Positions 882 to 17,429 of a DNA stretch of 37,270 nt are shown one piece after another. The position numbers were made by a program, and so were the translations under genes. A model generated the notes under the pieces. The model did no database searches. It was not told the origin of the DNA and worked only from the letters and a program-made list of their open reading frames with translations. Source of the stretch: a virus. The DNA lies in the IMG/VR virus record IMGVR_UViG_3300041955_000624, positions 1 through 37,270 of that record; one strand, given 5' to 3'. Each line of letters starts with the position of its first letter. Position 1 is the first letter of the stretch.

Positions 882-919
882 GCGCAAATTCAGACCGATC
901 TCCGCCTACTTAATGCATG
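882..919 (+). promoter_or_regulatory. 38-bp promoter/leaderless-start module, copy 1
   Basis: GCGCAAATTC at 882 and CCGCCTACTTAATGC before the ATG at 917. Aligned without gaps to the copies at 11607, 14209 and 17392, the spacing between the two blocks and the distance to the start codon are identical. There is no Shine-Dalgarno sequence upstream of the ATG. I read the blocks as -35-like and -10-like elements of an alternative-sigma promoter with transcription starting at or very near the start codon. Confidence 0.75.
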
Positions 920-1594
920 AAAACCATCCTCCTTTCGATCGTCTTCGTGGCGTTCATTTTGGCGGCGGAATTCTTTGTCGGCTCCCTGGCGGGATGCAGC
1001 CAGCTAACGCCGCCGGCCAAACAGGCCATTCAGAAGGGCCACGACCAGGCGGGGATTGAAGCGGGGAAACAGAAGGACCGTGCGACCACGCGAACGGCCC
1101 AGATCAACGCCAACGGCAAGATCAATGACGCCAACGCGGTGAACAGCCCCACGGCCCATCCGTTCGCCGCCACCAATTCCACGGTGAAGAGGGCCCGGAT
1201 CGAGCTTGGGGGATTGGCGCTGCTGGGCTTCATCGTGTTCGTCGTGAGCATGGGACTGCGATCGACGGCGCTGGCGGGGATCGCTTCGTTTGGAGTGCCG
1301 ATCGGAAGATCGGTGGCGGTGATTTCGTTCGCCACGGCCATCGCCCTGCCGTTCATCTTCAATCCTTGTGTCGCCGGATCAGTCTTCGGGGGAAGCCTCA
1401 TCTGGCTGATCGTTGAAATCGTGAAATACAAATCCGTCCCCGCCGGCTTCGAGGCGTTCGAGGCGGACATCCAACATCTGATCGCCGGGGTGGACGTCGG
1501 GAAGAACGAGGCGACGGTTTCAATGACGCCGGCAGAGTCACAGGCGGCGGCATCGGTGGAGACGGCGGTGACGGCCGCGATCGCGAAACTCTGA
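917..1594 (+). CDS. Membrane protein with lipobox and three TM segments
   Basis: 225 residues. Residues 1-27 form a lipoprotein-type signal ending L-A-G-C (Cys27). A polar stretch rich in Lys, Asn and Ala follows to about residue 95. Three hydrophobic segments lie at about 97-115, 118-145 and 150-172, then an Ala/Thr/Glu-rich tail. A processed lipoprotein with further membrane spans is unusual; alternatively the first segment is an uncleaved TM helix. Being the last late gene before a terminator and a membrane protein, it is a candidate lysis protein (holin or spanin-like), but no family match is claimed. The start lies exactly at the end of promoter module 1 without an SD, suggesting a leaderless mRNA expressed separately from the upstream tail operon. 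Confidence 0.75.
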   Translation: MKTILLSIVFVAFILAAEFFVGSLAGCSQLTPPAKQAIQKGHDQAGIEAGKQKDRATTRTAQINANGKINDANAVNSPTAHPFAATNSTVKRARIELGGLALLGFIVFVVSMGLRSTALAGIASFGVPIGRSVAVISFATAIALPFIFNPCVAGSVFGGSLIWLIVEIVKYKSVPAGFEAFEADIQHLIAGVDVGKNEATVSMTPAESQAAASVETAVTAAIAKL

Positions 1595-1659
1595 ATCAAT
1601 CGCGGCCTGGGGAGCGCCCCGAGCGGCCAAGCCGCAAGCGGCGCACAAGGGGGAGACGA

Positions 1660-1690
1660 GCGTGCGGCTCACAAGGCCGCACGCTTTTTT
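1660..1690 (+). terminator. Rho-independent terminator of the late operon
   Basis: A perfect 9-bp stem (GCGTGCGGC / GCCGCACGC) with a 7-nt loop is followed by TTTTTT. It lies between the plus-strand late genes and the convergent minus-strand gene at 1694-2119. Confidence 0.9.
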
Positions 1691-1693
1691 CTT

Positions 1694-2119
1694 TCAGGGG
1701 ATCGGACGTTCGAAAACGTAGATGGTCGATTGATCCGCGTCGGCCTCGATGCCGGAACGCTGAAAGCTGACCGAAGCGAACCTCCAGCCGTTCGATCCCG
1801 CCCAATTGAGAATTGGGGCAAGGCCCTGGTCCTTTTTCCCGGCCAGCTTTTCGGAAAGATTTTCAAAGGCTTTTTCGCCCTGGTGCGACGGCGGATCGCC
1901 GTGAGCGCTTTCAAAAAGGCAGTCTTTGGCGTCCGAACTCGGGCGCCACCATGCCGTGGCGTCGCCAATCGACGGGATCTCATTCACCTCCAGCGTGGCG
2001 TATTGCCATCGCTGCATCGGCGGCGAGCCGGGAACCGATTGGGCCGTAAGCTCCTTGCCCTCGATCACCAGGGCGACGGCGGCGAAGACGAACGCGAAAA
2101 CGATGAGCGGACGTTTCAT
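1694..2119 (-). CDS. Secreted small protein, DUF4177-like, probable moron
   Basis: 141 residues, read from 2119 down to 1694. The N-terminus is a typical signal peptide (MKRPLIVFAFVFAAVALVIEG), and GGGAGAGG lies just before the ATG as ribosome-binding site. The mature part contains RWQYATLEV, LNWAGSNGWRF and YVFERP, the pattern of DUF4177-type small domains (Trp/Tyr strand, LN..G..GW, closing strand); this assignment is tentative. A weak promoter can be drawn on the minus strand (TTGGCC at 2171-2176, TAAACT at 2147-2152, 18-bp spacer). It is the only minus-strand gene in the late half, convergent on the late terminator, with its own promoter region. That is typical of cargo genes expressed from a prophage. 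Confidence 0.75.
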   Translation of the reverse strand: MKRPLIVFAFVFAAVALVIEGKELTAQSVPGSPPMQRWQYATLEVNEIPSIGDATAWWRPSSDAKDCLFESAHGDPPSHQGEKAFENLSEKLAGKKDQGLAPILNWAGSNGWRFASVSFQRSGIEADADQSTIYVFERPIP

Positions 2120-2246
2120 GGCCTCTCCCGTGAATGTGAAGCCGTCAGTTTAGCCAGGTCGGGCACTGAGGGCCAAAAAAACGGACGTTGGCGACTCTCC
2201 CGACGGGCGGATGGCCGATATTGGGGGTGACTTTCAATCCTGGCTC

Positions 2247-2284
2247 GCGGCGTCCAGGCCGTTGCCCTGGACGCCGCTTTTTTT
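2247..2284 (+). terminator. Rho-independent terminator upstream of the control region
   Basis: A perfect 12-bp stem (GCGGCGTCCAGG / CCTGGACGCCGC) with a 7-nt loop is followed by seven T. It points in the plus direction although no plus-strand gene lies between 2120 and 2246. It would stop read-through from the late operon or antisense transcripts of the minus-strand gene before the early promoters. Confidence 0.85.
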
Positions 2285-16540: not shown

Positions 16541-16803
16541 AAACGCCCAAAATCGGAGACAAAGTCGCCTATGTCACGGGATTATCGTTCGAAGGGATTC
16601 CGATCCTCCGCGACGCCGAGATCGTGGCGATTCAAAACGCATCCTCGCTTACATGCGATCTGTGTGTTGGATCGCTCCAGGCCAGGTCTGTGCCATATTC
16701 GCGCGATCGGGCCAGCCCGCATTCGTGGTGCTGGTACAACGCCGCCGCGGCGGCCAGGGAAGCATGGCAGGAAAAACAGCGGCGGGCGAAGCTCGAAATC
16801 TGA
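16537..16803 (+). CDS. Small hypothetical protein
   Basis: 88 residues, coupled to the integrase by ATGA. The N-terminus KIGDKVAYVTGLSFEGIPILRDAEIVAIQ looks like a small SH3/KOW-like beta barrel; then SLTCDLCVG and a tail with HSWCWYNAAAAAREAW. No family is named with confidence. Confidence 0.6.
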   Translation: MKTPKIGDKVAYVTGLSFEGIPILRDAEIVAIQNASSLTCDLCVGSLQARSVPYSRDRASPHSWCWYNAAAAAREAWQEKQRRAKLEI

Positions 16804-16835
16804 AACCCGAATGACGAATCAAATTCGAAATCCGA
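16790..16835. repeat. Phrase repeat, AATGACGAATCAAATT family, providing a start codon
   Basis: CTCGAAATCTGAAACCCG and AATGACGAATCAAATTCG units. The TGA in the first part ends the previous gene and the ATG in the second starts the methyltransferase gene, so the repeat forms both gene ends. Confidence 0.8.
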
Positions 16836-17329
16836 ATAAAGCCCGAGTGGCATCGTGTTTGCGCAGCAGCAGCAGCAGCAGCAGCAGCAGCGATTGTTGG
16901 TTCACTCCGAAGAAACTGCTGGCATCACTTGGGCCGTTCGATCTCGATCCGGCGAATTCGGAACCGCGCAAATTTCCAACCGCGAAGCGGCATTATGGCC
17001 CGAGGCATGACGGTCTTTTGCAGAAATGGCGCGGGCGGGTATGGCTCAATCCGCCTTTTTCCAATGCTCGGCCGTGGATCGAGCGAATGATCGAGCACGG
17101 CAATGGCATCGTTTTGGTTTTCTGTCTCGCGGATGCGGCTTGGTTCCACGCGGCGTTCAAGGCGGCGACGGCGGTCTTTATGTTTCGCGGGCGACTGCAA
17201 TTCTCGCGGCCGGATGGGACAGGATCAAGGTGTCCGCTTGGATGCGTTCTGTTTGCGTTTGGCGAAAGCAATGCGGATTCGATCCGCCGCGCCAATCTGC
17301 CAGGTCTGATGCTCAAAATCGCGGCGTGA
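16811..17329 (+). CDS. Dam-type phage DNA N6-adenine methyltransferase
   Basis: 172 residues. After a repeat-derived N-terminus and a run of nine serines, WFTPKKLLASLGPFDLDPAN matches the opening of phage Dam-like enzymes (SAM site FDLDxA). Catalytic motif IV is N80-P-P-F83 (LNPPFSN), and PWIERMIEHG and IVLVFCLADAAWFH follow as in the family. Such small enzymes methylate adenine in phage DNA. The start ATG lies in a phrase repeat; an in-frame alternative would have to begin after the AGC tract, where no good codon is seen. Confidence 0.85.
   Translation: MTNQIRNPNKARVASCLRSSSSSSSSSDCWFTPKKLLASLGPFDLDPANSEPRKFPTAKRHYGPRHDGLLQKWRGRVWLNPPFSNARPWIERMIEHGNGIVLVFCLADAAWFHAAFKAATAVFMFRGRLQFSRPDGTGSRCPLGCVLFAFGESNADSIRRANLPGLMLKIAA
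16865..16891 (+). repeat. (AGC)9 trinucleotide tract
   Basis: Nine exact AGC units near the 5' end of the methyltransferase gene encode polyserine. Slippage would change the length of the linker but not the frame. Confidence 0.95.
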
Positions 17330-17330
17330 C

Positions 17331-17375
17331 TTCTTCGCGGCAGTTCGCGCCCTTCGCTTCTTCGCGGTGAATCTT
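17331..17375. repeat. TTCGCG phrase repeat before promoter module 4
   Basis: CTTCTTCGCGGCAGTTCGCG and CTTCGCTTCTTCGCGGTGAA, inverted orientation. As at module 1, a phrase repeat stands directly upstream of the promoter module. Confidence 0.8.
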
Positions 17376-17391
17376 CGCGAAACCGACCCGC

Positions 17392-17429
17392 GCGCACAAT
17401 TTGATCGCTCAGCGCCTACTTAAGACGTG
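17392..17429 (+). promoter_or_regulatory. 38-bp promoter/leaderless-start module, copy 4 (sigma operon)
   Basis: GCGCACAATT at 17392 and GCGCCTACTTAAGAC before the GTG at 17427. The operon behind it encodes a membrane coiled-coil protein and an ECF-like sigma factor, so the module may be autoregulated by the sigma it helps to produce. Confidence 0.75.

Follow-up and report, generated by a model that had tools for sequence, protein, structure and literature searches.

Module copies and the genes that follow them

The stretch of DNA analyzed here is the IMG/VR virus record IMGVR_UViG_3300041955_000624 at its full length of 37,270 nucleotides (hereafter, the window), and its central feature is a 35-bp module present in four copies, each running directly into a start codon. 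The copies lie on the plus strand at positions 882-916, 11607-11641, 14209-14243 and 17392-17426, and lead into ATG at 917, ATG at 11642, GTG at 14244 and GTG at 17427, exactly where an initial annotation of the sequence had placed them. In copy 1, GCGCA (882-886) is followed by 16 variable bases, CGCCTACTTAA (903-913), TGC and the ATG. The motif GCGCA-N16-CGCCTACYTAA-N3-RTG occurred exactly four times in the window, always on the plus strand and each time with the start codon at offset 35. The annotation had described the same sequence in all four copies; this holds in the form CTACYTAA (4 of 4), but the strict motif is found in only three, copy 2 having CTACCTAA in place of CTACTTAA. The copies fall into two pairs, copies 1 and 2 (TGC-ATG) and copies 3 and 4 (GRC-GTG), that also differ within the gap.

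The two blocks had pairwise identities among the copies of 1.00 and 0.95; the value fell to 0.49 in the 16-nt gap and to 0.29-0.31 in the flanks and the following codons, with 0.26 expected. Invariant columns accounted for 15 of the 16 in the two blocks and for 3 of 16 in the gap (positions 9, 12 and 15). Outside the module, invariant columns numbered 1 of 40 on the upstream side and 2 of 57 in the codons after it, and conservation ends at both edges.

A 35-column matrix built from the four copies and run on both strands scored them at 49.7, 48.7, 45.4 and 45.3 bits. Equally good sites inside genes, which the annotation had named as grounds for giving up the module, did not appear: the next match in the window reached 8.1 bits, and the peak in ten order-1 random sequences, each twice the window length, was 15.9 bits. 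Because this matrix had been trained on the same four sites, a leave-one-out analysis was also run. The held-out copies scored 37.3, 30.6, 33.6 and 36.1 bits, each ranking directly behind the three training sites, and the best non-module sites reached 12.6, 11.3, 7.7 and 8.7 bits. The frequency with which a plus-strand position is an ATG or GTG opening an open reading frame (ORF) of at least 100 amino acids was 0.0098; four of four at one offset corresponds to about 9e-9, an estimate in which the 100-amino-acid limit was picked after the genes had been seen. The four-copy module is confirmed as real and lies far beyond chance.

Behind copy 1 is a plus-strand gene at 917-1594 (225 amino acids) whose best coding suffix begins exactly at 917. 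By reading, its product has a hydrophobic, signal-like N-terminus and an LAGC motif, which we take to be lipobox-like. A terminator-like hairpin with a T tail (1658-1686, plus strand) lies 3' of this gene and is consistent with a single-gene unit, on a weak basis given that the stretch holds 5 terminator-like sites and shuffles hold 4.5. The gene of copy 2 (11642-12109, plus strand, 155 amino acids) likewise has its best coding suffix exactly at its start, and its product had no family match of weight in profile searches. Copy 3 precedes a 108-amino-acid plus-strand ORF at 14244-14570, which shares 4 nt (ATGA) with the next ORF, at 14567. The gene of copy 4 (17427-17732, plus strand, 101 amino acids) shows coding statistics that begin within one codon of 17427, and it overlaps the sigma-like gene at 17729-18385 by 4 nt, again at ATGA. 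Its product reads as one hydrophobic stretch followed by a coiled-coil-like part, with weak matches only (holin 0.0054, spanin 0.013, anti-sigma 0.27). In all four copies an in-frame TAA, itself part of the motif, lies two codons (six bases) upstream of the start, so the reading frame cannot open farther upstream.

The four module genes had been annotated as having no Shine-Dalgarno (SD) sequence, and the duplex energies with the 16S tail agree: pairing was weak at 917, 11642, 14244 and 17427 (0.6, 1.2, -1.5 and 0.8 kcal/mol), and the module contains no SD-like bases. At 32 other starts, picked by hand (a 33rd, 15587, was excluded as not a start codon), the median was -6.6 kcal/mol and 28 of the 32 paired below -2.5 kcal/mol (one-sided Mann-Whitney p = 0.0019). 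SD pairing is thus the rule in this phage and the module genes are exceptions. The general claim that neighboring genes carry SD sequences is borne out by these counts, but its two examples fared less well. The AAGGAGG near 13415 goes with a gene on the minus strand, and the AAGGAG before 14778 probably marks no start, as coding there seems to begin near 14880-14892. The minus-strand genes at 13415 and 13822, between copies 2 and 3, showed strong SD pairing (-11.2 and -9.4 kcal/mol), the opposite style to that of the module genes.

Candidate sigma factors

Copy 4 heads a unit made up of 17427-17732 and the overlapping gene 17729-18385 (plus strand), which is second in the unit. The latter had been annotated as an extracytoplasmic function (ECF)-like sigma factor. 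Its product matched the NCBIfam model TIGR02937 at 19.3 bits (E = 6.9e-4; model positions 4-162 of 165, protein positions 33-205), and when the phage was searched in six frames the match reached 1.7e-5. This weak match runs from end to end over sigma2 and sigma4 and covers little else, which is the domain content of ECF factors. The match lies below the model's cut-off and is joined by no Pfam sigma match, and from its sequence the protein looks ECF-like without being a filed family member. Structural genes follow downstream on the same strand, and the gap at 18385-18655 holds a doubtful ORF at 18432.

Two AlphaFold models were built without an alignment, and both were of low confidence (predicted local distance difference test, pLDDT, 56 for the 17729 protein and 47 for a second model); Foldseek returned nothing for either at E 0.001. 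In the 17729 model, helices 155-213 were aligned by VIA-align with six sigma4 chains, several of them from ECF factors (Z 3.9-4.3, root-mean-square deviation 1.8-2.5, 46-51 residues). The same list contained unrelated helical proteins at equal or higher Z than the sigma chains, so this match lends the assignment little weight.

A second candidate lies downstream of copy 2, on the plus strand at about 12577-12978, where a protein region of uncertain start shows sigma region 2 and no visible region 4. The ORF at 12334-12978 matched Pfam Sigma70_r2 at 7.3e-5 (22.9 bits, cut-off 24), and a TIGR02937 match at 4.4e-5 covered 12655-12849. This sigma2-only protein is a second candidate reader of the module. 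A helix-turn-helix (HTH)-like frame at 12281-12619 overlaps the sigma2-like frame (about 12496-12978) out of frame; 12281-12978 looks like either a single protein broken by a frameshift or a pair of genes with an unusual start.

Promoter reading of the module and its alternatives

We propose that the module is a bipartite promoter with its -10 element directly before the start codon. GCGCA(M) would form the -35 element and the -10 element would lie around CCTACY, separated by a 17-bp spacer and followed by 6 bp to the start codon. With CCTACY as the -10 hexamer, the spacing would place +1 on the first base of the start codon. The transcript would then start on the start codon or no more than about 3 nt away from it, giving a leaderless mRNA. 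The promoter reading fits because two invariant blocks stand at -35/-10 spacing, conservation is absent outside them, Rfam gave no match to the modules and SD pairing is weak. A sigma-70 promoter scan found none at the modules, and its total for the window was no higher than in shuffles (2 versus 2.4; 1 versus 0.8). We consider it likely that the module is a promoter whose transcript starts on or next to the start codon. The annotated interpretation is supported in part: of its -35/-10 reading, the blocks, the spacing and the edges fit, and we infer the leaderless starts of the four module genes from a geometry that suits them, and recognition by the phage sigma-like protein from gene position and domain content.

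The most likely reader would be host core RNA polymerase together with the phage 17729 protein, to judge from the position of its gene and its domain content. By analogy with Salmonella phage 7-11 and phage phiEco32, the invariant -35 block makes a factor with region 4 a better candidate than the sigma2-only protein. With copy 4 upstream of the sigma-like gene, the factor would reinforce its own expression (positive feedback), and the same transcription could supply the late structural genes that follow downstream. The promoter fusion and the 17729 protein as its reader, taken jointly, form the account that we favor on balance.

The same fusion might instead be read by another factor, either a host alternative or ECF-type sigma factor or the phage sigma2-only protein at 12577-12978. 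A second sigma2-like protein does lie downstream of copy 2, the sequence does not name the binding protein, and the first transcripts need some sigma factor that is already present. However, a bipartite motif with an invariant -35 block calls for region 4, and the 12577 protein shows region 2 only. The known phage sigma factors divide in the same way: phiEco32 gp36, which has no region 4, uses a single-element promoter, whereas 7-11 gp47, which has region 4, uses a bipartite one (PMC8948821). That a GTDB set gave just two chance-like matches, described below, speaks against a host promoter in wide use, with the proviso that the set may not include the phage's own host. We regard another reader as possible but rather unlikely.

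Two further explanations dispense with the promoter at this site. The module could be an RNA or translation-start element, bound by the ribosome or a phage protein, with transcription starting farther upstream. Such an element would be equally compatible with the weak SD pairing and the constant spacing to the start codon, and the start-associated sequences (SAS) of Cluster K mycobacteriophages, whose role is described as unsettled, offer a parallel (PMC3203893). In the predicted minimum-energy folds, the first GCG pairs with CGC at positions 22-24 in three of the four modules (copies 1, 2 and 4), but this stem of 3-4 bp is weak (-1.7, -2.1 and -4.5 kcal/mol) and copy 3 folds otherwise; both sides of the stem are invariant, which leaves no covariation by which to judge it. 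Against an RNA element stand also the missing Rfam match and SD-like bases, and two short blocks around a variable 16-nt gap suit DNA recognition better. We hold it to be quite unlikely. The module could also be an operator or another DNA site, for repressor or activator binding or for recombination, that lies at gene starts by chance. Conserved repeated sites in phages are often operators, and the module has a short dyad in which GCG (copies 1 and 2) or GCGC (copies 3 and 4) at the left end is matched by its complement ending at position 24 (positions 21-24). A dyad of 3-4 bp leaves the invariant TAC-Y-TAA unexplained, however, and the single orientation and invariant start-codon offset in four of four copies do not suit an operator, which we consider very unlikely.

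Several results count against the promoter fusion or against the 17729 protein as its reader. With 19.3 bits the protein misses the curated TIGR02937 cut-off of 42.9 bits; gp47 of phage 7-11, a positive control, reached 54.8 bits against the same model. Pfam, at an E limit of 10, gave no match to sigma region 2 or 4, only DUF5995 at 0.096, and no sigma match was found in PHROGs or by phmmer against PDB sequences; the structural model, too, is of low confidence (pLDDT 56). A tblastn search with the protein in 50,697 phage records at E 0.1 gave no match. The ORF behind copy 3 has weak coding statistics, with a score of 0.4 and a best suffix only from 14475. Four of the 32 comparison starts (12281, 15272, 18432 and 35574) were also free of SD pairing, so its absence is by itself not special. 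The choice of TACYTA as the -10 element would place +1 on the third base of the start codon. The short dyad and stem keep the operator and RNA explanations alive; this evidence is weak, too weak to shift their probability.

The search for relatives belongs with these points: it gave no comparative support, and the module is known from four sites in one genome. An exact-pattern scan of IMG/VR without the start codon found 12 stretches, none of which (0 of 12) had a start codon at offset 35. In the GTDB set, the exact pattern with start codon gave two chance-like matches, on an Armatimonadetes contig (13-amino-acid frame) and a Planctomycetia contig (43-amino-acid frame). With up to 2 mismatches, the genomes of these two matches showed no excess over a reversed-pattern control (7 versus 22; 4 versus 9). 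The exact module is not a widespread bacterial promoter; both scans used the exact pattern and would miss diverged modules. IMG/VR yielded no protein relatives for the 17729, 12577 and 11642 proteins (5, 8 and 26 candidates, respectively); the 917, 14244 and 17427 proteins were not queried. Terminase relatives numbered 203, of which 80 were kept (best identity 44%, L017). In these 80 loci (2.07 million bases, both strands) CCTACYTAA-N3-RTG was absent, and a scrambled control occurred once. A k-mer scan for repeats at a fixed distance before starts, with SD-like k-mers filtered out beforehand, returned four module k-mers and two others in the window. In 94 other loci, many of them fragments, the scan returned 8 isolated k-mers in 7 loci, none of them an analogous module.

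If the fusion of promoter and start codon is real, it couples a phage-specific transcription switch to a separate mode of translation start in one compact element. Under a stronger version, the entire sigma regulon would be leaderless by design, one 35-bp cassette setting both the timing of transcription and the mode of translation; once the sigma factor was made, its messages would use a leaderless route independent of the SD route of most other phage genes, and the co-encoded, membrane-like 17427-17732 protein might hold or release the sigma factor. We consider this stronger version unlikely. The fusion would also offer a ready-made orthogonal, SD-free expression cassette (the sigma factor plus a 35-bp promoter-start). 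With it one could ask cleanly whether infecting phages use leaderless translation as a channel of regulation. Since the putative sigma factor is too diverged for curated models, systems of this type that protein searches miss could come to light by scanning for motifs at gene starts.

Phage genome

The ends of the record (1-128 and 37143-37270) overlap by 128 bases, 127 of them identical with one mismatch. The 37,270-base record is therefore most likely a complete circular genome of about 37.14 kb. Profile and family matches identified a gpA-type terminase (19642), a lambda-type portal (21821), a head protease (23341), a major head protein (25430), a tyrosine integrase (15563) and DNA methyltransferases (4677 and 16571); an excisionase-like HTH protein is encoded on the minus strand at 13197-13415. 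The terminase, portal and head genes together with the integrase and the excisionase-like gene mark this as a tailed, probably temperate phage.

Adjoining the minus-strand excisionase-like gene, the minus-strand sequence at 12977-13020 resembles, by reading, the T-arm and 3' end of a tRNA. ARAGORN found no complete tRNA there, and the sequence is a possible attP core. Plasmid records with a match to the integrase numbered 1024, each at less than 60% identity; they come from many hosts and single out none. An ORF at 8889-9806 (plus strand) carries a type IV prepilin N-methylation motif (Pfam N_methyl, 1.6e-5), an unusual phage cargo without a match in plasmid records. Within the structural gene block, 27999-29510 (plus strand) matched the phage lipase family phrog_6102 (1.6e-12).

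Long intergenic inverted repeats were seen at 6557-6656, 7082-7230, 14111-14174 and 33820-33889, with short units such as CGCCAAGA or GCGCGAAG. One of them stops 35 nt upstream of copy 3, and copies 1 and 4 have related units within the roughly 40 nt that precede them. These repeats look like sequences taken up from a host chromosome. The repeat TTACCGCGAAGNNGCGAAG occurred five times in the window and in none of 59 genomes sampled from the phylum to which a Planctomycetia contig belongs. Judging from the types of repeat, the host may belong to Verrucomicrobiota, which is a suspicion only.

Comparison with known systems

The closest parallel is Salmonella phage 7-11, whose ECF-like sigma factor gp47 reads promoters of the form GTAAtg-(16)-aCTA with transcription starts 6-9 bp from the element; promoter P48 lies upstream of the sigma gene, and positive feedback was proposed by the authors (PMC8948821). 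Both phages have an ECF-like sigma factor (here a candidate), a bipartite promoter (here a proposed one) with a spacing of about 16 bp, CTA at -10 and few copies, and in both the motif precedes several units including one with the sigma gene (here, copy 4), as expected of a sigma regulon. We located 7 of 8 promoters before the expected genes in 45 kb of 7-11. From the start of the -35 element to the end of CTA these measure 26 nt, compared with 27 nt in the module. Applied to the module, the 7-11 rule for start sites would place transcription starts at positions 33-36, and the start codon begins at 36. The two systems differ in the -35 element and in the leader, which in 7-11 is some tens of nucleotides long: the distance from CTA to the start codon was 35, 39, 45, 70, 73, 87 and 89 nt at the seven 7-11 promoters and 8 nt in all four modules. 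One of the seven, the gene 12 promoter, is a predicted site, with no primer-extension product named in the passages available (PMC8948821). Pairwise blastp and single-sequence hhalign gave noise when the 17729 protein was compared with gp47, and no similarity was detectable.

Phage phiEco32 likewise has a sigma factor with its own short motif in few copies. Its gp36 reads tAATGTAtA and has no region 4, in which it resembles the sigma2-only candidate (PMC8948821, PMC4331800), but its promoter is single-element. We found six motif sites, whose distances to the start codon are 11, 33, 36, 38, 39 and 59 nt; AGGAG is present in the last 20 nt before 5 of 6 starts. The 11-nt site most closely approaches a fusion, but AAGGAG intervenes.

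Other systems share single features. TA-led leaderless bacterial genes lack an SD sequence and carry a -10-like signal some 12 bp ahead of the start codon; their signal is the sigma-70-type TANNNT, in contrast to the invariant CGCCTAC-Y-TAA and -35 block described here (PMC3160421). The module reads TACTTA or TACCTA, with no T at position 6. The SAS of Cluster K phages are, like the module, asymmetric repeats immediately before start codons in one phage group, but their consensus GGGATAGGAGCCC contains AGGAG, and the module is bipartite and free of AGGAG (PMC3203893). By reading, GGGATAGGAGCCC was absent from all four modules. In phiKZ the late promoters are reported to consist of TATG, with G as the start, and phage transcripts are described as often leaderless; unlike the module, these promoters are read by a phage multisubunit non-virion RNA polymerase, and the leaders of AR9 measure 26-491 nt (PMC5312081). 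No multisubunit phage polymerase turned up among the window proteins scanned.

The initial annotation had considered the whole combination undescribed in phages. Phage 7-11 already provides an ECF-like sigma factor that has bipartite promoters of its own and for which feedback has been proposed, so that, in the sources available, only the fusion to the start codon stays unmatched. In the open-licence PMC papers searched, no report of phage sigma promoters fused to SD-less start codons was found. The proposed arrangement, in which every promoter of a phage sigma factor is fused to an SD-less start codon, is new as far as the literature searched reaches, and sets the module apart from the 7-11 promoters that it otherwise resembles.

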